Source: Fodinisporobacter ferrooxydans
GTDB taxonomy: Bacteria; Bacillota; Bacilli; Tumebacillales; MYW30-H2
Length of the DNA stretch: 64,000 bases
Assembly (NCBI RefSeq): GCF_022818495.1
Contig: NZ_CP089291.1
Span: 1,909,001 to 1,973,000, forward strand
Direction of reading: 5' to 3'
This document shows, piece by piece, positions 7,802 to 34,503 of the stretch. The position numbers and the translations under genes were made by a program. The notes under the pieces were generated by a model. That model was given only the letters and a program-made list of their open reading frames with translations, ran no database searches and was not told the origin of the DNA. Each line of letters opens with the position of its first letter. Position 1 is the stretch's first letter.

Positions 7802-8231
7802 TTTAAAATAGAAGCTTACCGTATGCTTGTAACGCAATTCAAATAAAATCAAATTGTTTTTCAAAATACCATTTTTATAAAAGGAAGTAGGCGTGACTTG
7901 CTATAGTGCTGTTGCGTCTATTTCATTTTATACATGTTGTGTGTATACAGCTGTAAAAATTAGATTCGCAATACTAATGAAATTTAAATATACAGTCGAT
8001 ATAAATCGATCCTGATTTCCATTTATTATAGATCCTGAATCCGTGACGACTGTCGCCGATTGCAGGGAGATGGCACAATAAAACCTCCATCAAAGCACTT
8101 CATAAATTGCTTTGGGAAATATTGAAAAATATTATTGAATAATTAGGTCGGTCGTAGTTTTTTTGAAAACCTAAGCTCAGAATTCCAAATATCTATGAAA
8201 ATCCAGAAAATCAATTAGTATTTGAAAGATA
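7802..8231. other. Non-coding stretch before an insertion sequence
   Basis: AT-rich, no gene, terminator or repeat that I can support. Confidence 0.4.
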
Positions 8232-10443
8232 TTTAACACTACAACGTAGTCTATTTTGACCACTCAAGCGGTACTTTTATGACGCTTTTTTCTGTGTGAA
8301 CGGTAGGCTTTGGCGTTTGATTTTTGGTAATACGCAACATCCCGTACCGCTTTTCTGATGGCGGACGGGTCTTGTGTTAGCGCGGCTATGATTAGGATCA
8401 ATGCTTGCCGCATTGTCAAGATGGAATGGCTGTCGCCGTTTTCGTTTTTTTTTTGAAACTGTTTGCGTACTTCCAATACAAATAGATGCGCAACCATCAC
8501 GAGCAACATGTGCCTATGCCAGCCTATGTAGGATCGCGTTTCGTAATGAGCCATTCCGAGAAAGCTTTTACACTCTTGGAAGCTTTGCTCGATTGGCCAA
8601 CGTAAGGTTGCGGCATGGTGCAACTCGCGGACGTCGATGTCTTCTGGAGCATTGCAAACAGCGTATTTGATCCGTCCATCTTCATACTTGCGGATATAGA
8701 GCCAGAGCTCCTCACCATCCTTGCCATCTTGCAGTTCAATAACACGGCAATATTTGACCAACGTACGCACCGGTCCCTTGGAGCCTTCCATTAATACAAT
8801 TTCTTCCCAGGGCAAAGATTCATCTTGTGCAAGGGAAGAGACCGGGACGGCCGGAACAGAAGGAACCAGCTTGGTTGGCGGTTTCCCGCGACCTTTGCGT
8901 TCTGGCAGCGCCCAGTTCGGACGTTCCCGGAATACACGCTGATTGCTGTGGATATCCGCAAAGAACAAGACGGACTCAGGCAGGCCTTTCCGAAATTCGG
9001 CATCGCAGCCGAAAGCTCCATCGCAACCAATCCATTTGAACTGGAAAGCGTGATGTTTTACGGATTCCTGGATCATTTCAAGTGCAAGTTGCGGCTTGGT
9101 GCGAAACTCAGTTGTTTCCGGAATGCCGCATGATGACCAGTACGCCTTGCGCTCACCATCGAACCACGCCTCGGGCAGATACAGCCTGGCGTCCAGCAAA
9201 CCGTAGCCGCCGATCCCGGAATAACCGATGAATACGCCAGCTTGGCAGTTTTCGACTTTCCCTTTGCTGCCGCAATATTGTCGCCAGACGCCTGCAGATT
9301 TGGTTCCTTTCTTGCCAAAATCGGAGCCGTCTATTGTAATCATACCGTTTGGATCGTTTGCGATAGTGCAGACCCTGCTCTGATAGGTTCGCTTCATTTG
9401 CTGGTCATCCCACGGGGCGTCTTTAAGAAAGAGCTGCAGCGTGCGAACTACCTTTTCATCTTCATACCGCAAGGCAATCGGTTCGATGCTTTTGCGATCC
9501 AGGTCGCTAAGCAGCCCTTTGATATAGGTTTCGCCGTTTTGCTGCTGATCACTGCGAGAAAAGCAGGATGAATAGCGATTCAGGTACTCGGACAGAGCAG
9601 ATCCCAAATCGGCGACAGATTGTTCATTTAATCCGGCTTCGGTAAACAAATCCGGACTCCAATCAGGCGTACTTAGCATCATATCCCATACCCTCACACG
9701 CTCCAAATTGGGATTCGGTCGCAGAGGATATTGGGAAATCAGTTGCAGCAGTTTGCGATTTATCAGGTAAAAGAAAACCCCTTTGCGGTTGCCGTGATAA
9801 ACAAAGGTTTTCCCCACTTTGCCAAAGCCGCGAGTTTCACCCAAGTATCGCCAGTTGGCGGCTTTGTAGCAGGTGCCTTGATAGCAAGTGAAATCTACGA
9901 AGGTTTCCACGGCATAGGGTTGATCGCCATAAATCCTTGGCCAGTCACACTGAAGCAGGCGAAGAGATTGTGATAAGATATGAGAAGCCAGATTCTTAAT
10001 GCGAATCCAAGGCAGAATGAGAAAACGGTTATTGTTGACGATATGATTGAGAAGATTAAGTCTTCCAGTTTCTCCCCAACCCAAATAACTGTCCCTTACG
10101 CCGATTTTTAAAGAAGCACGATGAAAGCTAATTGCGGCGATAGGCATGTCTTTAAACAGCACCAGATACTTGATTCTGGGACCGATCATTTTGTCATAGC
10201 CAAGATAATGCCATGTACGAACCATATGGTTCCAGACGCTTTCATCCTCGGTTCCGTTAACCAAGACGAATGAAAGAGGTTGAAAGTCTCTCAACTTCCC
10301 TACAATAGGCTGCTGGTTTGTCCAGTAATCGTACATGCTGCATCCGTCCTGTCTTTGATGTACCCAACGACCGAATCCCGCTTTCAGCATACACTAATTT
10401 CAGGAGTTTGTCTACCGTTTTTAGACTACGTTGTAGTGTTAAA
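8232..10443 (-). mobile_element. Insertion sequence with DUF4338-IS701-type transposase
   Basis: Inverted repeats AACACTACAACGTAGTCTA lie at 8235-8253 and, reversed, at 10422-10440. They can be lengthened by TTT/AAA on the outside, which blurs the ends. A single transposase gene fills the element. I could not assign a target duplication with certainty. Confidence 0.85.
8264..10390 (-). CDS. Transposase: DUF4338 (DruA-like) domain plus IS701-type DDE domain
   Basis: 708 residues. About residues 20-280 carry a DUF4338 domain (YLGYDKMIGPRIKYLV, ANWRYLGETRGFGK). The C-terminal 400 residues are an IS701/IS4-superfamily DDE transposase with IDGSDFGKKG, IGCDGAFG and the glutamate in WPIEQSFQECKSFLGM. 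The gene ends 30 bases inside the left inverted repeat. Base composition is more GC-rich than the flanks, which fits recent arrival. DUF4338 is also found in DruA of the Druantia defence system, but here it belongs to a transposase. Confidence 0.88.
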   Translation of the reverse strand: MLKAGFGRWVHQRQDGCSMYDYWTNQQPIVGKLRDFQPLSFVLVNGTEDESVWNHMVRTWHYLGYDKMIGPRIKYLVLFKDMPIAAISFHRASLKIGVRDSYLGWGETGRLNLLNHIVNNNRFLILPWIRIKNLASHILSQSLRLLQCDWPRIYGDQPYAVETFVDFTCYQGTCYKAANWRYLGETRGFGKVGKTFVYHGNRKGVFFYLINRKLLQLISQYPLRPNPNLERVRVWDMMLSTPDWSPDLFTEAGLNEQSVADLGSALSEYLNRYSSCFSRSDQQQNGETYIKGLLSDLDRKSIEPIALRYEDEKVVRTLQLFLKDAPWDDQQMKRTYQSRVCTIANDPNGMITIDGSDFGKKGTKSAGVWRQYCGSKGKVENCQAGVFIGYSGIGGYGLLDARLYLPEAWFDGERKAYWSSCGIPETTEFRTKPQLALEMIQESVKHHAFQFKWIGCDGAFGCDAEFRKGLPESVLFFADIHSNQRVFRERPNWALPERKGRGKPPTKLVPSVPAVPVSSLAQDESLPWEEIVLMEGSKGPVRTLVKYCRVIELQDGKDGEELWLYIRKYEDGRIKYAVCNAPEDIDVRELHHAATLRWPIEQSFQECKSFLGMAHYETRSYIGWHRHMLLVMVAHLFVLEVRKQFQKKNENGDSHSILTMRQALILIIAALTQDPSAIRKAVRDVAYYQKSNAKAYRSHRKKRHKSTA

Positions 10444-21149: not shown

Positions 21150-21237
21150 GTAAGCGCTCAATAAACCGGTGCATGGTCAGCATACTTTAATCATGAGAAA
21201 ATACCTCCATAAGAGCAAGAAATGGAGGTATAAAGAA

Positions 21238-21534
21238 ATGGACATTAGCGAAAAACAGGCGATAGTGGCTGAATGCAGAGCTAGCGGGATGACCGCAAAA
21301 GCATGGTGCGAAGCAAAGGGCATTGAATATCGCCAATATGTTGTATGGGCAACGAAAGTAAATCGAGAAGAGCATCATGCACCGCAACAATGGGCTAATG
21401 TAACAATGAAAAAAGATGAGCACATCCCGGACGAAATCCGGCTGACCTGTGGGAAATGGACGATTTGCGTGGTATCTGGGTTCAATCCCATACTGCTTGC
21501 TGACTTACTTCGGGTCGTGGATGAAGTATGCTGA
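21238..21534 (+). CDS. tnpA: IS66 TnpA
   Basis: 98 residues with an N-terminal helix-turn-helix (KQAIVAECRASGMTAKAWCEAKG). AATGGAGG precedes the ATG at 21238. It overlaps tnpB by 7 bases, typical for IS66. It is an accessory protein needed for transposition. Confidence 0.85.
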   Translation: MDISEKQAIVAECRASGMTAKAWCEAKGIEYRQYVVWATKVNREEHHAPQQWANVTMKKDEHIPDEIRLTCGKWTICVVSGFNPILLADLLRVVDEVC

Positions 21535-21890
21535 AAGACATCACAAACTATGACGGGATCTACTTGGCCTGCGGAGCTACAGATCTAAGGCTCTCAGTAG
21601 ACGGCTTGTCCATTATCGTGAAACAGAAATTCGAAATGGATCCATTCGGAAACTACCTTTTCCTGTTCTGTAACAAAAGCCGAAATCGGCTGAAAGGCCT
21701 GAGTTGGGATCGCAACGGCTTTGTCCTCTATTATAAGAGACTTGACGGCGCGGGTGCTCGATTCCAGTGGCCCAAAGAGCCGGCTGATGTAAGAACTATA
21801 ACGATCCGGCAGCTTCGCCTGCTCATGGAAGGCATGTCCATTGACCCTCCCAAAGGTTTCGGAGAAGTCAAAGCCAGGGACTTCTGCTAA
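21528..21890 (+). CDS. tnpB: IS66 TnpB
   Basis: 120 residues, the IS66 Orf2 family: YLACGATDLRLSVDGLSIIV, FCNKSRNRLKGLSWDRNGF and YKRLDGAGARFQWP are the family hallmarks. It is full length. Confidence 0.92.
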   Translation: MLKDITNYDGIYLACGATDLRLSVDGLSIIVKQKFEMDPFGNYLFLFCNKSRNRLKGLSWDRNGFVLYYKRLDGAGARFQWPKEPADVRTITIRQLRLLMEGMSIDPPKGFGEVKARDFC

Positions 21891-22012
21891 GAAAAATACC
21901 CCCTCGACATTGCCGACAATCATTTGTTTTCGGAAACTGACTATCAATGTTCAAATGCATCCATCCCTTGATATTACTCGATTTCCGGGCATTTTTATGG
22001 TAAAATTGAGCT

Positions 22013-23602
22013 ATGAAAACGATCGATTTGGAGAGTCTTTCTCCCGAGATAACTGAATATATTTTAAAACTCGAAACCCAATTACAAGAACAGACGAAAA
22101 CGGTCGAAGACCAAAGGATCCGTATCGACCAACTGATGAATATGCTGTCCAACTTTCAAAAAACTCTGTATGGTCAATCCAGCGAAAAAAGTAAGTATGT
22201 GTTAGGTGAGGATAGTCAGCAGCTTTCTCTGTTCAACGAAGCGGAGGCCGAGTCCAATCGTCATACTCCCGAGCCCGATAACGTCTCTGTTTCCGGGCAT
22301 ACTCGAAAAGCCAAGCGGACAAAGGAAGAAATCGCTGCAAATCTTCCCGTGGTGGAGATCCTTTGTGAGTTGGAAGAAGAAAAACGGGTCTGTGAGGAAT
22401 GCAGCGGAAACATGCGGGTGCTTGGCAAAGAAACGGTCCGGGAAGAGTTAGAGATCATCCCGGCCCAGGTAAGGCGGCTTCGCTATGTCCGACAAAGCTA
22501 TGTCTGCGAAAGCTGCGAGAAAGAAACGGGCGAAGCGACCATCGTAAAGGCACCCACCCCCGCCCCTGTCATAAAACGGAGTCTTGCTTCAGCATCTACG
22601 GTGGCTCATGTCATGTATCAGAAATATGTGAATGGCATGCCGCTATACCGACAGGAAAAAGACTGGGCCAATCAGGGGATCATCCTTTCCCGAGCCACTT
22701 TAGCCAACTGGGTCATTCGAGCTGCAACGGACTGGCTGGTGCCTTTATGGGAGACCATGAAGTCTTATCTCCTGAATCAGGGGGTGATTCACGCAGATGA
22801 AACTGTGATCCAGGTACTCAAAGAGGAAGGGAAGAAACCATCCTCTGATTCGAGAATGTGGGTCTACTGCTCGGGGAATACCGGAGATGCGACAGTGGTG
22901 CTGTTTGAATACCAACCTACACGATCCGGCGAGCATGCGAGACGGTTTCTGGAAGGCTTTCATGGGTTTTTACAAACCGATGGCTACAGTGGATATGACA
23001 AGGTTCCAGAGGTAACCCGATGTGGGTGCTGGAGCCACTTGCGCAGGAAATATCAGGAGGCCATGCCCAAGGGTGGAACAGTGGAAGGCTCCGCTGCCGC
23101 GGTAGGATTTGAATACTGCAACCGATTGTTTGCCATCGAGAGGGATTTGGCACAGCTCTCTCCGGAAAAACGGAAACAACAGCGTCAGGAACGCTCCAAA
23201 CCCGTTCTTGAGGCGTATTGGTCATGGCTCGAAACCGTAAACCCTCTTAAAGGTTCCAAACTGGCAGAGGCTATTACCTATTCTATTAACCAAAAAACGT
23301 CGCTGAATACGTTTCTGGAAGATGGGCGCATTGAATTGTCCAATAATCGAGCCGAGAATGCCATCCGGCCCTTTGTCATCGGAAGAAAGGGATGGTTATT
23401 TGCTGATACGAAAAAAGGAGCACAAGCAAGTGCAGTTGTCTATAGCATTGTAGAAACGGCAAAAGCGAATCAACTCAATGTTTATATGTATCTCGTACAT
23501 ATCTTCAGTAAAATGCCAGGGTTAGACTTCAAGAGCAATCCATCGCTTCTAGAAGATTTGATGCCTTGGTCGCAAAATCTGCCAAACTACTGCCGCAACT
23601 AA
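22013..23602 (+). CDS. tnpC: IS66 transposase TnpC
   Basis: 529 residues. An N-terminal coiled coil (10-50) is followed by a zinc-binding segment with two CxxC pairs (CEECSGN, CESCEKE), then the DDE domain with HADETVIQV, LQTDGYSGYD and the glutamate in LSNNRAENAIRPFVIGRK. It is full length. A poorly defined 120-base gap separates it from tnpB. Confidence 0.95.
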   Translation: MKTIDLESLSPEITEYILKLETQLQEQTKTVEDQRIRIDQLMNMLSNFQKTLYGQSSEKSKYVLGEDSQQLSLFNEAEAESNRHTPEPDNVSVSGHTRKAKRTKEEIAANLPVVEILCELEEEKRVCEECSGNMRVLGKETVREELEIIPAQVRRLRYVRQSYVCESCEKETGEATIVKAPTPAPVIKRSLASASTVAHVMYQKYVNGMPLYRQEKDWANQGIILSRATLANWVIRAATDWLVPLWETMKSYLLNQGVIHADETVIQVLKEEGKKPSSDSRMWVYCSGNTGDATVVLFEYQPTRSGEHARRFLEGFHGFLQTDGYSGYDKVPEVTRCGCWSHLRRKYQEAMPKGGTVEGSAAAVGFEYCNRLFAIERDLAQLSPEKRKQQRQERSKPVLEAYWSWLETVNPLKGSKLAEAITYSINQKTSLNTFLEDGRIELSNNRAENAIRPFVIGRKGWLFADTKKGAQASAVVYSIVETAKANQLNVYMYLVHIFSKMPGLDFKSNPSLLEDLMPWSQNLPNYCRN

Positions 23603-23904: not shown

Positions 23905-25104
23905 TCACCCATTCGGTTGCTTCTCTAAGCGAAACAATTGAATTGCCAAAACGGATGCCAGAATTGCAAAGAATCCAAATATAAGTAACGCCATGCGAAA
24001 TCCTAAGAGAAGTGCACCACTGAAAACCAAGCTGCCAACACCAAATCCTAAAAATAAACAGAAAACATTCAACCCCATAGCAAGACCACGCTTGGAAGTC
24101 AAATCTGTCACGATACCCGCCAGCAGCGGCTGGGTCATATCATAGCCGAGGGAAAGGGTCGTGACAAGTAATGCGGCTACAATCACCGGAAGATGCAGGG
24201 AAAGAACAGCGGTTGAAAGTCCTGCGATCACGAAGCCGATTGGAATGAAATGACTTCTTCCCATACGATCGGCCAAGCGGCCAATGACTGGTCCGAAAAG
24301 AAAACCGGGAATTCCATAACCGAGTAGTGCAAGTCCGACGCCCACATCACCTAAACCATACCGCTTAGCAAAATAGTACCCGAGCCATGTAAAGACCCCC
24401 GAATGAAATATGCCGTTAAACAAAACGTACGTATAAGTTCGAGCACCACGTTTGGATTTCAGTAACATAAGCAGCCCCATTCCTACCTGACGAAGGGTGG
24501 ATGGAACGTTGACCGTCACACGTTGATCCAACATTGTTTGGAACGGTATCAATGTGATGAAAACCAGGATCGACAATACAGCGACACCGAGAAAGAGCCC
24601 TTGCCATGTAAGGAAAGGTTCAAGAACGGCTCCCAGTGTTGAACCAAACGCCATCCCGCCAGCCATTGCTCCGAACAGCCACCCGAGCGCACGCCCACGT
24701 TCTTTGTAGTCAAAGTGGTCGCCGACAAGAGCCAACGCAATCGGCACTACACCACTGGCAACAAGTCCCGTAATCAGACGCAGCCAGAATAAAGCAGCTG
24801 CAGAATCGGCGAGTGCCGTGAACCCGGTAAATAAAATGAATCCGGCAAACGATGCGAGAATAATAGTACGTCGCCCCAAACGATCGGAAAGTGGACCGTA
24901 AACGAGTGTTGTCGCTCCATATGGGAGTAAGTAAGCTGGAACGATCAACCCGATGGTTCCAACCGAAACATTGAAAAAACTCGCAAGATGTGGGATGAGT
25001 GGAGCGACCATGAAAGCCTGAAAGAAGATCAGGAAGGTCGCTGCCGAGAGAACCCAAAGAAGGCGGATTCTTGGATCACTTTGCGAACGAACATTAGGCA
25101 CCAC
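23905..25104 (-). CDS. MFS efflux transporter of the metal operon
   Basis: 399 residues, 12 membrane segments. The loop 2-3 motif of drug-efflux MFS proteins is clear (YGPLSDRLGRRTII), and a second copy lies in the C half (GPVIGRLADRMGRSHF). It is the last gene of the minus-strand operon that begins with the P-type ATPase at 27973, 13 bases after the HMA gene. The substrate is unknown; its placement suggests metal or metallophore export. Confidence 0.85.
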   Translation of the reverse strand: MVPNVRSQSDPRIRLLWVLSAATFLIFFQAFMVAPLIPHLASFFNVSVGTIGLIVPAYLLPYGATTLVYGPLSDRLGRRTIILASFAGFILFTGFTALADSAAALFWLRLITGLVASGVVPIALALVGDHFDYKERGRALGWLFGAMAGGMAFGSTLGAVLEPFLTWQGLFLGVAVLSILVFITLIPFQTMLDQRVTVNVPSTLRQVGMGLLMLLKSKRGARTYTYVLFNGIFHSGVFTWLGYYFAKRYGLGDVGVGLALLGYGIPGFLFGPVIGRLADRMGRSHFIPIGFVIAGLSTAVLSLHLPVIVAALLVTTLSLGYDMTQPLLAGIVTDLTSKRGLAMGLNVFCLFLGFGVGSLVFSGALLLGFRMALLIFGFFAILASVLAIQLFRLEKQPNG

Positions 25105-25117
25105 ATATTCCTCCTTA

Positions 25118-25429
25118 TCATTCAGGCCGATAATCGGGTATCACATCCTGAACGTGGTATCCGGCTTTTTCAATTGCTGATTTCATATCATCAATGGTTG
25201 CTTTTTGTGGGTCAAAGATAACCCAGGCATGATCCTTTGGCGGAATCTCGACCTGAAAGCGATAGACGCCGGATATTTTCTTTAGCGCACCCTCGACCGA
25301 GGGCTTACACGCATGCATTCAATGCATGCCGATTCCTTTGAGAAGAACACTTTCCATCCCTTCCGGAACTGTCATTTCGTGCATTGCTTTCTGGCTTTCT
25401 TTTTTGAACAATCGATCAAAAAATCCCAT
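25118..25429 (-). CDS. Small HMA metal-binding protein with an in-frame TGA
   Basis: From ATG 25429 (GAGGGG upstream, overlapping the csoR stop) the frame reads MGFFDRLFKKESQKA to ESVLLKGIGMH, meets TGA at 25321-25319, then continues MHACKPSVEGALKKISGV to 25118. With the TGA read through, the product is 103 residues with a CopZ-like beta-alpha-beta fold in which TGA stands by the first metal-binding cysteine. The spacing to the next Cys is one residue longer than CxxC. A restart at the ATG directly after TGA would give 66 residues lacking the first strand. Either the gene is broken or the TGA encodes selenocysteine (see findings). Confidence 0.55.
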
Positions 25430-25439
25430 AAGAATCCCC

Positions 25440-25742
25440 TCACTTTGCGTATTTATAAATGACATCCATCAGATCATCGTACACTTCATCCGATCCGTTT
25501 TTTATAGCATTCGTGGCACATGTTTGCAGGTACTTGCGCATGACCTCTTTTCCGACACTTCGCAGTGCTTCGTGGATACTGGAAATCTGCGTGAGTATAG
25601 CGACGCAGTTCGATGTATCTTCTTCAATCATCCGTTTGACGCCCCGTACTTGCCCTTCGATCACGGACAGTCTGCGAGCGCATTTTTCGATCCGTTCCTT
25701 GCGCTCGAAATCATCCATCATTGGCAGTTCTTGCATGTTCAC
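25440..25742 (-). CDS. CsoR/RcnR-family metal or sulfur-responsive repressor
   Basis: 100 residues, all helical, DUF156 type. In Cu-sensing CsoR the ligands are Cys, then His-x3-Cys. Here the first Cys is in TSNCVAILTQ and the second in YLQTC, but the residue four before it is Tyr, not His. That is more like CstR-type persulfide sensors or an altered metal site. It lies 23 bases after the P-type ATPase and before the HMA gene, and should repress the operon from the ATACCCCCT elements near 28023-28074. Confidence 0.85.
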   Translation of the reverse strand: MNMQELPMMDDFERKERIEKCARRLSVIEGQVRGVKRMIEEDTSNCVAILTQISSIHEALRSVGKEVMRKYLQTCATNAIKNGSDEVYDDLMDVIYKYAK

Positions 25743-25765: not shown

Positions 25766-27973
25766 TCAAGAAAGATTGGCAGGGTTTTGTGGTTCTCCCA
25801 GAGCGAATCGGCTGAACAACGTGTGGCCAAGTACCACAACCAGCGAGAAAGCCATCGCCAACATGGCCCATAAAGGGTGAACGAAACCTGACAATGAGGC
25901 TACAACGCCAATTCCGTTCACTGACAATGCGAGTAATACATTACGAACCGTCATGGCGTAGCTGGTTCGTGCCAAGATATGTGCTTCCAACACAGCTTTG
26001 AGTCGCTGTCCCGGAAGTACAACGTCGGCAGCATCGATGGCAATATCTGTCCCAGTGCCAATGGCAATTCCCACATCGGCCTGCATCAGAGAGGGGGCGT
26101 CGTTGATCCCGTCGCCGATGAAAGCGACTCGGCGGCCTTCTCTTTGCAGTTGTCGAACGAACGAGAGCTTATCTTCCGGAAGCAACTGTGCATGAACATC
26201 CGTAATACCGAGTTCCTCTGCAACTGCACTGGCTGCTTGCTGGTGATCGCCAGTTGCTAGGATAGCTGAAATTTTTAATTTCTTCAACGAAGCAAGAACT
26301 GATTTTGCATCCGGTTTTATGCGATCCGAAACGGAGATCGCACCGGCAACCTTCCCGTTATATGCTACAAATACGATCGTGCGACCATGCCACTGCTGTT
26401 CTGCTATCCACTCCCGAGCCTCTTTCAAATCATTCAGCCCGCGCTCTGTCATCAGCCGCTCCGTGCCAATCAGCACTTCCTGATCTTCTATTCGGGCTTC
26501 GATGCCTCGACCCGGAAGAGCATGGAAGTGATTCATTGACTGAATGGGTAATCCCTGTTCCTTTGCCGCTGAAACAATCGCCTTTGCAACGGGATGTTCG
26601 GATGCCCAATCGGCAGAAGCCGCCAAGCTAAGTACAGTATCCTCATCGCCATTTAATGTCCATACGGATGCCAGTTGTGGTTTCCCTTCCGTTAACGTAC
26701 CAGTCTTATCGAATACGATCGTGTCCACGAGCCGGAAGACTTGGAAGGCTTCCCCGGAGCGCATCAGGATTCCTCGTTCCGCCGCCTCACCACTTGCCCG
26801 AATGATCGCCAAGGGTGTTGCCATGCCAAGCGCACATGGATAACCCATGACAAGCACGCTGAGGACTGTAAAACCCGCTCGCACCCAGAGTGGGTGACCT
26901 TCGAATACCCAACTGGCGACAACCCATAAAAGCCCACCGATAAGTGCCAGTATCAATACGGTCGGAACATAGATATTCAAGATTCTGTCCACGAGCCGGA
27001 GGATTCCCGGTTTCATCACACGCGCTTCTGTAACTTGGTTTGCCACTCGCTGGAGAAATGAATCTTCGCCAATCCGGGTAACCTCGATGATGAGGCTTCC
27101 GTTTCCATTCAAGGATCCTCCAATCACTTCGTCGCCAGGCTGAGTATCTACTGGCAAGGGCTCGCCTGTGACAAGCTGTTGATCCACCGATGACACACCT
27201 TGGACGATTTTCCCGTCGACAGGAATGCGTTCACCAGGTCGAACCCGAACGTGGTCAGCAAGCGCCAGGCTGTCCACCGGAACCATTTCTTCACAACCGG
27301 TTGGATCCAGTCGAGTTGCTGTTGCCGGTTGGAGCGACAAGAGTTTTTGAACGGATTGTGATGCACGCACATGAACCAGAACCGATGCAAAACCACCCAC
27401 ACCGTGGAAGGCGAGCACAAACGTCGTAGCCCCAAAGAAAGCTGACGACGGGAAGGCCGGCCAAATCAATCCGAGAGCACCACCGACGAGTCCGGCCGCT
27501 GCTGCCGCTGCCGCCAAAACGTCTTGGTTTACGATCCCACGGCGGACCGATTGAAAAGCATTACGGAAGACAAAAGATGCGGGCCCCAATGTAGAGATGA
27601 TGGCGAAAGCCGCCTGCCCAACATCAAATATCATGGAATGTCCTAGCCAAAAGCGCAGAACCATCCATATCGTGGCAAGGGCAACCAGAATACCAACGTG
27701 AATGGCGGTACGCCGGGCATTGTTTAGTTCCTGCTTTTCCACCGCGAAAACATCCGCACGATTCGGCTCTCTCGATGTGTACCCGAGCTGATATAACGTT
27801 TGTGTCATCGTATCGATTCGTACTCGACCTGGATCGTAGTCAATGAGAACTTCCTGGTGTGCGAGACTGACTTGCGCATCCGAAACGCCGTCCAATCGGA
27901 CAAGTGCACGCTGAACGGATTGAGTGCATAGTGAGCAGTGCATGCCTCCCACCTTGAGATGGAGTTTACTCAT
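25766..27973 (-). CDS. P1B-type metal-transporting ATPase with YPC motif
   Basis: 735 residues. An N-terminal HMA domain has GGMHCSLC (residues 9-16). The phosphorylation motif is DKTGTLTEG and the hinge is GDGINDAPS. The transmembrane metal-site motif is GYPCALGMATP, with Tyr where most copper pumps have Cys (CPC). This should alter metal choice, so copper specificity is not certain. The promoter region has two ATACCCCCT elements. First gene of the operon with the CsoR-like repressor, HMA protein and MFS transporter. Confidence 0.9.
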   Translation of the reverse strand: MSKLHLKVGGMHCSLCTQSVQRALVRLDGVSDAQVSLAHQEVLIDYDPGRVRIDTMTQTLYQLGYTSREPNRADVFAVEKQELNNARRTAIHVGILVALATIWMVLRFWLGHSMIFDVGQAAFAIISTLGPASFVFRNAFQSVRRGIVNQDVLAAAAAAAGLVGGALGLIWPAFPSSAFFGATTFVLAFHGVGGFASVLVHVRASQSVQKLLSLQPATATRLDPTGCEEMVPVDSLALADHVRVRPGERIPVDGKIVQGVSSVDQQLVTGEPLPVDTQPGDEVIGGSLNGNGSLIIEVTRIGEDSFLQRVANQVTEARVMKPGILRLVDRILNIYVPTVLILALIGGLLWVVASWVFEGHPLWVRAGFTVLSVLVMGYPCALGMATPLAIIRASGEAAERGILMRSGEAFQVFRLVDTIVFDKTGTLTEGKPQLASVWTLNGDEDTVLSLAASADWASEHPVAKAIVSAAKEQGLPIQSMNHFHALPGRGIEARIEDQEVLIGTERLMTERGLNDLKEAREWIAEQQWHGRTIVFVAYNGKVAGAISVSDRIKPDAKSVLASLKKLKISAILATGDHQQAASAVAEELGITDVHAQLLPEDKLSFVRQLQREGRRVAFIGDGINDAPSLMQADVGIAIGTGTDIAIDAADVVLPGQRLKAVLEAHILARTSYAMTVRNVLLALSVNGIGVVASLSGFVHPLWAMLAMAFSLVVVLGHTLFSRFALGEPQNPANLS

Positions 27974-31389: not shown

Positions 31390-34300
31390 TTATTCATGGT
31401 GATGTTCCGGTTCCTGATCGCAACAAAGGATGGCATCTTTATGCGGGTGACCGTCATCTTCTGTTTGAATGGTTGCATGGCTAATGCCCAAATGGATAAG
31501 ATTATGTTCAATTTCCCGGATAATCGATTGACTCTGGCGAATGGACATACTTCCATCAAGCACTACATGACAAGATAAAGCGTTCTTTCCGCTGGTTATG
31601 CTCCATGCATGCAGGTCGTGTACATCATATACGCCCTTGATCGATCGGATTGCTTGCACGATATCCGGAATGGAAATCCCGCTTGGTGTTCCTTCCATGA
31701 GAATACCAATGGTTTGTTTCAAAATCTTCCATGCGCCAAACGCAATGAGTACGGCGATCAAGAAACTGAGGATGGGATCGACTGCATACCAGCCTGTCGT
31801 TGCAATAATGATGCCGCCAATAATAACGCCCGCGGATGCGGCCGCATCACCCAGCATGTGCAAGACTGCGCTTTTGACATTAATGTTTTCCTCTTTGCTG
31901 AGCCCCAATCCAAGATATAGATTCATAACGAGCCCGACTCCGGCGCTGATAAACATCCAAGTGCTGCTCACAGGTTCCGGAGATTGCAACCGTTTGTATG
32001 CTTCCCATCCGATGACCAAGGCAATGACAATTAACGACAAAGCATTAATAAAAGCAGCCAAAATCCCCGACCGGTGATATCCGTATGTCATTGCTTCGTT
32101 TGGAGGCTTCATCGCTTGCTTCATGGCATACCATGACAAGCCGATCGCCGCAATATCTGTCAAAACGTGTCCGGCATCGGAAAGCAGCGCCAAGCTGTGG
32201 GAAATATAACTTCCGATCAATTCAACAACAAGGATCACAAGGGTTAGAAAAAAAGCAATTTTCATTTTGCCAATCGGGGCATGAGAATGGAAAACCCCAC
32301 TGTGGTCATGATCATGTCCATGATCGTTTGTATGTGAGTGTGTTGTAGCCATCGAATCTCTCCTTTTCAAAGGATCAAAGATCTTTTTACAATTCAACAT
32401 GTAAGACCGGGATCGCAGCAAGCGCAAGCCGTTTAACGTGACGAGCAGTGTTGCTCCCATATCTGTTAGAATTGCAAACCAAAGTGTCAGCCAGCCTGGG
32501 AATACCAGCAATACGGCAATGGTCTTCAGTGCCAAAGCCAAGAAAATATTTTGTTTGATAATGCCAAGTGTCCGTCTGCCTAATGCAACGGCATAAGGTA
32601 TCCTGGATACATCGTCCGACATCAATGCGACGTCTGCAGTTTCCAGCGCAACGTCCGTTCCCGCTTTCCCCATGGAGATCCCGACAGTGGCGGCTGCGAG
32701 TGCCGGAGCGTCATTGATCCCATCGCCGACCATTGCCACCTTTTTTTGTGTTTGCAGCAACTTCTTCAGTTTTTCCAGCTTCTGTTCCGGAAGCATTTCT
32801 CCGTAATACTCCCGAATGCCTACACGTTCCGCAATGGCACGGGCCGTTTGCTGTGTGTCGCCGGATAACATGACGATCTGTTGAATGCCTAAATGATGCA
32901 GCGCTTGAATTGCAGCGGCGCTTTGTTCACGTACCTGGTCCGAGACAGCGATCCAGCCAAGAATCTCGTATTCATCCCCCAGCAGTATCAAGGTTTGGCC
33001 TTGTGCCTGGATCCGGTTGATTTCCTCCTGAACGGTCGACCAATCGATATGCAGGTCATGGAACAAACGGACATTGCCGATATAATAGGTTTTGCCGTCG
33101 ATCCTGCCAGATGCGCCTTTGCCGACAAGGATTTGCATGGTTTCCGCCATTTGCGGGGAACTGACACCCATGGCATCCGCTTTGGCGAGAATCGCGCCGG
33201 CAAGCGGGTGTTCCGAACCTCTTTCCAGCATTGCGGCAAGTGTAAGGATCTCCAGCTTCGAACGTGAGCTTGTGGTATCCCAATCCATGACAACAGGTTT
33301 GCCTTTTGTCAAAGTTCCGGTCTTGTCAAAGGCAATTCCTTTTAATTTCCCCAGTTCCTCCAGATATAAGCCGCCTTTGATCAGAACTCCGTTGCGTGCA
33401 GCCGAGCCGATTCCGGTAACGATCGCGACCGGTGTCGAGATGACGAGTGCACAAGGACAAGCGACGACGAGCAATGCCAAGGCTTCGTATATCCAATGTT
33501 TCCAATCCCCATGAAAGAAGAGGGGAGGAACAAAGGCAGTCATCAATGCCAAGCTCATGACAATCGGCGTGTAATGTTTGGCAAAACGGTCGACAAATGT
33601 TTGGGAAGGAGCCTTTTGGTTTTGTGCCTCTTCCACCAAATGGGTGATTTTTGCCAATGTAGTATCCTGTGCAAGAGCTGTGGCACGCATGCGAATGGTA
33701 CCTGTTTGATTCAAGGTTCCCGCATAAACCGCATCGCCCGCCTGCTTTTCGACAGGCATCGATTCGCCTGTAATCGCCGCTTCGTTGATAGTGGTGGCAC
33801 CTGCCATGATTTCGCCATCGATTGCCAGTTTCTCCCCGGGTTTGACGAGCAGTTCATCTCCGATCGCCAGTTGTTCAACAGGCAGCCGAACTTCACGCCC
33901 GCCGCGAATCACGATGGCTTCTTTTGGCGCAAGATCCATTAACGTCCGGATCGAGGAGCGGGCTTTCTCCATGGAATACGACTCCAGCATTTCACTCACG
34001 GAAAACAGGAAGGCTACGGTTGCTGCCTCTTTCCACTGGCCGATGAACAGTGCGCCAATGACAGCAACTGTCATTAATACGTTCATGTCAAAATCAAGGC
34101 GCATAACATTTCGCAAACCTTTTTTCGCGACCGAATATCCGCCAAGAAGGATGGAAAGAAGCAGAAAGAGCCGTCCCGATGCGAATGACCCAAATCCCCA
34201 TCCCAACAGCAGACATACGAGAGACAAACCGGTTGTCCAAACCTTTTGTGAACGATACCAGGGAAGCTGTATCAAAGATTGGGCAGAACCCTCTTCAGCG

Positions 34301-34503
34301 AAGGAAACCTGTTCGACTTTTCTCGCTTCTTTTTCCAATTGATCTTTGGAAAGCGTACCGATGACCATTAATTTGGCTGTGGCAAAATGTAAAGATACTT
34401 CTGTCAGTTCAGGCAACGCCTGAAGATGCCGCTCAATTTTGGCGGCGCAACCTGCTCAGGTCATGCCTGTTATATGATAGACCGATTTTTTTTCCGCAGT
34501 CAT
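31390..34503 (-). CDS. CadA-like P1B ATPase fused to CzcD-like CDF exporter, with TGA at codon 16
   Basis: From ATG 34503 the frame reads MTAEKKSVYHITGMT, then TGA at 34458-34456, then AGCAAKIERHLQALPEL; read through, it is 1037 residues. The first 45 residues are an HMA domain with TGA where the first Cys of GMTCAGC belongs. Next is a Zn/Cd/Pb-type ATPase with VVACPCALVISTP, FDKTGTLTKG and GDGINDAPAL. From residue 718 (MATTHSHTNDHGHDHDH) a complete CDF exporter of 320 residues follows in the same frame. A strong AAAAGGAGAG site lies 5 bases before that Met, so the second half can also be made alone. The upstream ArsR gene ends 21 bases before the ATG. Confidence 0.8.

Follow-up and report, generated by a model that had tools for sequence, protein, structure and literature searches.

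The question raised by this locus is whether the single in-frame TGA of a small HMA-domain gene terminates translation or encodes selenocysteine (Sec). In the window, by which we mean the whole stretch of 64,000 nucleotides that was analyzed, the gene starts with an ATG at 25429, ends with a TGA of its own (25120 to 25118), and keeps the same frame on either side of the internal TGA, with the translation MGFFDRLFKKESQKAMHEMTVPEGMESVLLKGIGMH-TGA-MHACKPSVEGALKKISGV... and the motif GIGMH-TGA-MHACKPSVEG around that codon. The initial annotation had described a small HMA gene in one frame across a TGA, between CsoR-like and MFS genes, and both its coordinates and its assignment to the minus strand are correct (Table 1). 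We consider it very probable that the protein encoded here is a metal-binding HMA protein with Sec as the first metal ligand, the UGA being recoded by SelB and Sec-tRNA(Sec) by means of a downstream hairpin.

Table 1. Positions of the discussed features within the window
Feature	Position	Strand	Basis
Gene with an HMA domain and a single in-frame TGA; 103 residues on readthrough, Sec as residue 37	25118..25429	-	frame, Pfam HMA
In-frame TGA, proposed Sec codon, at the first metal-binding Cys	25319..25321	-	frame and relatives
SECIS-like hairpin	25289..25304	-	bSECIS rules
Perfect inverted repeat (8 bp) around the TGA, which forms the triloop	25311..25329	-	window scan
GAGGGG, which overlaps the CsoR stop and is the likely ribosome-binding site for the HMA gene	25436..25441	-	by eye
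MFS transporter gene, last in the cluster	23905..25104	-	
CsoR-family repressor gene (Pfam PF02583)	25440..25742	-	
First gene of the cluster, for a heavy-metal P-type ATPase whose HMA domain is of Cys type (GMHCSLC)	25766..27973	-	
ZntA-like P-type ATPase, carrying an in-frame TGA within the HMA domain and continuing in frame into a CDF transporter	31390..34503	-	
In-frame TGA of the ZntA-like ATPase	34456..34458	-	

Profile scores of the HMA gene were calculated with the internal TGA read as Cys. The product scored 28.0 bits against Pfam HMA (PF00403), above the gathering cut-off of 24.8, and its best NCBIfam scores were to CopZ-like families, all below their cut-offs (NF033795 CopZ, 50.8 bits versus 91). 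Apart from the TGA, the 103 codons contain no other disruption, and homologous coding sequence is present on both sides of the in-frame UGA. A structure model built from three sequences only (mean pLDDT, 70.4) has the order beta-alpha-beta-beta-alpha-beta, which is that of HMA domains. Its first strand comprises residues 28 to 34, ahead of the Sec position, and the part following the TGA would therefore be an incomplete HMA domain by itself. The ligand spacing, UxxxC, exceeds the usual CxxC by one residue, as had been remarked in the initial annotation, and the two-ligand CxxC arrangement of PF00403 is thus absent.

The initial annotation had also pointed to the ATG that directly follows the TGA, which is indeed present, and had entertained a restart or a dead gene; we regard both as less likely than Sec. 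Were the TGA a true stop, translation restarting at the adjacent ATG would yield two small products or a C-terminal piece alone, and the sequence AAAGGA, seen by eye 15 nt ahead of that ATG, might serve as a ribosome site, albeit at a long spacing. Such a product would lack the first HMA strand as well as the first metal ligand; the stretch ahead of the TGA matches HMA families, and relatives with TGA or Cys at this codon have no ATG directly after it. A restart is consequently improbable.

Comparison with relatives, which had been proposed in the initial annotation, showed that homologues carry either TGA or Cys at the codon occupied by TGA in the HMA gene. TGA was located at the first metal-binding Cys of HMA frames in nine other Bacillota genomes, at one site each, where the motifs read GIGMF-U-QNC (L132), GLT-U-AAC (L135), GIT-U-ESC (L136), GMT-U-GHC (L133 and L134), and GMT-U-AAC or GMT-U-ASC (L159, L160, L162, and L163). 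The spacing is UxxC in all nine and CxxC in the Cys homologues examined; Cys counterparts of the HMA gene were found in Cytobacillus firmus and Planococcus lenghuensis. We view the position of the TGA, which falls exactly on the first metal-binding Cys and is common to nine sites elsewhere, as the strongest support for Sec. SelA scored above the cut-off in each of the nine genomes with a TGA-bearing HMA gene (eleven genomes were tested, all positive), which is weak by itself given that 197 of 299 sampled genomes of the phylum have SelA above the cut-off as well.

Relatives were sought in samples of 398 genomes each, in genome_contigs with narrow patterns, and in plasmids, a scope in which rarer orthologues may be missed. 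Of 21 loci examined in one set, five had TGA at the metal Cys. One genome-sample search gave 22 matches, comprising four HMA frames and 18 others, of which 6 were translated and 12 were judged by their near-identical matched letters; a further search gave two own-ATPase matches and five others, all in HMA frames. No close orthologue of the HMA gene, in which stops elsewhere might have spoken against recoding as proposed in the initial annotation, and no divergent one was found by these searches; the sole near copy was an identical duplicate in the same genome. A protein-based search of genome_contigs yielded 25 pattern stretches, none of them a relative. The strict DNA pattern GM-x-[U/C]-xxx-C-[K/R]-x-x-VE, which misses changes at M, K, or VE, gave 21 stretches in genome_contigs; the 20 that were checked (L105 was not re-found) all lay outside HMA frames, and neither a UxxxC nor a CxxxC relative emerged by this pattern. 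In G399, the HMA gene with TGA (L132, about 8200 to 8580 of a draft contig) shifts frame near its 3' end, and its C-terminus is therefore uncertain.

A hairpin of sequence CCCTC-GGTC-GAGGG, with a loop starting in GG 20 bases past the TGA, had been proposed as SECIS compatible, and published rules bear this out. As set out in PMC13188914, bSECIS elements have a loop of 3 to 9 nt, a stem of 4 to 16 bp, a G in the first two loop positions, a spacing of 16 to 37, and an energy of at most -7.5. The hairpin of the HMA gene (GCCCUC-GGUC-GAGGGU, 25304 to 25289) agrees with these rules in every respect, having a 4-nt loop, GGUC, that opens with GG, a 6-bp stem, a position 20 nt after the TGA, and an energy of -9.0 kcal/mol. 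It was equalled in 22 of 2,000 synonymous recodings within the stated spacing and at 134 of 31,976 sampled window positions, and a hairpin at or below -7.5 followed 1 of 46 TGA stops of window open reading frames of at least 100 amino acids. A plain fold of all 48 nt stood out less (z = -1.79; 14 of 200 shuffles did equally well). No hairpin conforming to the SECIS rules lies behind the terminal TGA of the HMA gene, so that not every TGA is read as sense. L132, the TGA-bearing relative of highest similarity, shares the loop GGUC, here at 17 nt, and its stem differs by one C-G to G-C swap and by one G-C in place of G-U. Over five relatives, covariation was weak (23 of 500 shuffles reached the score) and no single common register emerged.

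A second TGA-bearing HMA gene is present in the window, and the initial annotation had taken the occurrence of two such genes with TGA at the same motif as strengthening the case for recoding. This pairing was confirmed: the second gene encodes the ZntA-like ATPase, which has a single TGA (34458 to 34456) in the motif GMT-TGA-AGC. The hairpin behind it, at 37 nt and -5.7, misses the -7.5 rule. A near-identical copy of this ATPase gene is located at 153 kb of the host genome (98.8% over 2,664 bases), and the two differ at 4 synonymous versus 13 nonsynonymous codons of 706. Most of the nonsynonymous ones fall toward the 3' end, at which one of the two terminates while its counterpart continues into the CDF gene. 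The ATPase-CDF fusion frame comprises 1,037 amino acids in the window; the genome copy, L018, has TAA at codon 701. Elsewhere in the host genome, at 1013 to 1204 of L020, an HMA-like open reading frame has GMNMNAI and lacks both metal Cys residues.

The HMA gene is part of a compact cluster in the order ATPase, CsoR, HMA(U), and MFS, with gaps of 23, 10, and 13 nt. A second copy of the cluster lies at 4.08 Mb and is 100% identical over 3,882 aligned bases, with its MFS gene cut to 301 amino acids. The second copy ends inside the MFS gene near position 4526 of L017, at a junction followed by palindromic sequence that resembles what some mobile elements leave. IS66-type transposase genes adjoin the cluster in the window (21169 to 23602), and a protein of 529 amino acids there matches NF033517.

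These data bear on the reading that the gene died recently, its first Cys codon having become TGA and the lesion having later been copied with the cluster. A change from TGT or TGC to TGA takes one step, the UxxxC spacing is odd, and conservation of the HMA gene itself was seen in no orthologue. Against this reading stand 103 codons free of further disruption, a likely ribosome site and a tight cluster that are both intact, a correctly placed SECIS-like hairpin, identity between the two genome copies over 3,882 bases, and the TGA codon shared with nine other genomes and with the second window gene. We judge decay to be about as improbable as a restart.

The initial annotation had made the recoding idea depend on sel genes in the host, and these are present. 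The host genome, a single contig of 4,856,687 bases, encodes SelA (598.7 bits), SelB (352.5 bits versus a cut-off of 242.25; an open reading frame of 638 amino acids), SelD, and tRNA-Sec (60.5 bits versus a gathering score of 47). Two SelD genes were detected (L125 and L126), both having a single in-frame TGA close to the N-terminus. A relative of formate dehydrogenase with one in-frame TGA (SCNRT-TGA-HAPS) was also found; its 137 bits fall well short of the cut-off set for the formate dehydrogenase-N model used. Leaky UGA reading occurs in bacteria, and an ordinary near-cognate tRNA rather than Sec-tRNA might decode the codon at a low level and give little full-length protein, yet this is the least probable of the alternatives given the full Sec machinery of the host, a hairpin that follows the SECIS rules, and the expectation that only Sec or Cys could act as the metal ligand here. 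Together, the Sec machinery, the hairpin, and the TGA at the same codon in relatives support the recoding idea advanced in the initial annotation, and Sec insertion in the HMA gene is predicted with strong indirect support.

In the proposed mechanism, SelB bound to the hairpin would deliver Sec-tRNA(Sec) to the UGA. Sec37 and Cys41, numbered from the ATG at 25429, would then form a Se-S clamp on a soft metal such as Hg(II), Cu(I), or Ag(I); selenolates hold soft metals more tightly than thiolates. The protein would pass its metal to the neighboring P-type ATPase, a probable exporter, and the cluster would be under the control of the CsoR-family repressor. We infer capture of a soft metal by the HMA protein from its place beside this repressor and the ATPase, and metal binding and hand-over are predicted from family and neighborhood.

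In G006, a genome of the same order, the neighbors of the TGA-bearing HMA gene are genes for CsoR, for a P-type ATPase of the heavy-metal type, and for a Cys-type HMA protein; in G399 they are genes for a regulator of the MerR family, a protein with a thioredoxin domain, and a membrane protein resembling DsbD/CcdA. Plasmid p1 of Cytobacillus firmus carries genes for a 65% identical ATPase, an HMA protein, CcdA, a second HMA protein (GMDCMSC, with Cys at the position of the window Sec), a thioredoxin-family protein, and a CsoR-family protein, and this island adjoins merR, merT, merP, and merA. On a plasmid of Planococcus lenghuensis, an HMA gene has merR on one side and, on the other, a CcdA gene and then merA. 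In the CsoR proteins of the window and of C. firmus, a Tyr stands four positions ahead of the second Cys; at this place G006 CsoR has His, the residue that binds copper in classical CsoR. These mer neighborhoods and the Tyr make mercury, or some other soft metal, a candidate alongside copper.

The extra Met of UxxxC coincides with a perfect inverted repeat around the UGA, GCATGCAT-TGA-ATGCATGC, with ATGCAT on both sides of the TGA. Such arms flank 1 of the 2,374 TGA trinucleotides in the window, namely, the proposed Sec codon alone. The wider spacing may be either a slip fixed by chance or an altered choice of metal. More speculatively, and with rather low confidence, the widened motif (MH-U-MHAC) might define a chaperone in which the extra Met/His together with the Se-S clamp confers a metal selectivity, e.g., for Hg(II) or Ag(I), that has no counterpart in CxxC or UxxC proteins, and the UGA at the apex of an 8-bp hairpin ahead of the SECIS may act as a second recoding control.

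If Sec is inserted, the HMA protein would be a small, readily expressed case of selenium serving as a ligand in metal trafficking rather than as a redox catalyst, and the distance from Sec to Cys in HMA sites could vary. Gene callers may split such HMA genes at the TGA. According to a 2026 review, further work is needed on what such Sec residues do in metal detoxification (PMC13188914).

Proteins of this kind are already known as predicted selenoproteins: PMC2398784, PMC13188914, and PMC9312934 list a heavy-metal ATPase that has UxxC, a mercuric transport protein, the MerP of a marine survey, and a metal-binding protein with UxxU. The heavy-metal ATPase ABB15669.1, as presented in PMC13188914, resembles the window protein in having Sec at the first Cys of an HMA-type metal motif; the former is an ATPase with UxxC, whereas the latter is a stand-alone HMA protein with UxxxC, and it is the ZntA-like ATPase of the window that is of the same listed kind as ABB15669.1. 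NCBIfam includes two selenoprotein families with HMA similarity. NF041115, a UxxU metal-binding (seleno)protein that PMC13188914 lists as a putative mercuric reductase, likewise has an HMA-like domain with Sec as metal ligand, but it has two Sec residues, whereas the window protein has one and scored 35.4 bits against its cut-off of 95. NF045683, a MerT/CopZ fusion-like heavy metal transport selenoprotein, shares a CopZ-like part but is a fusion with a MerT-like part, and the window protein scored 19.4 bits against its cut-off of 375. The mer-linked proteins of C. firmus p1 and P. lenghuensis have a similar HMA domain, and C. firmus p1, like the window cluster, combines the related ATPase with a CsoR-family gene; these HMA proteins differ in having Cys, CxxC spacing, and an extra N-terminal stretch. 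No UxxxC HMA selenoprotein was seen among the nine relatives or by the strict pattern in genome_contigs, and open-licence papers yielded no mention of UxxxC together with selenocysteine. What differs in the window protein is thus the wider UxxxC spacing, which looks new as far as searched.
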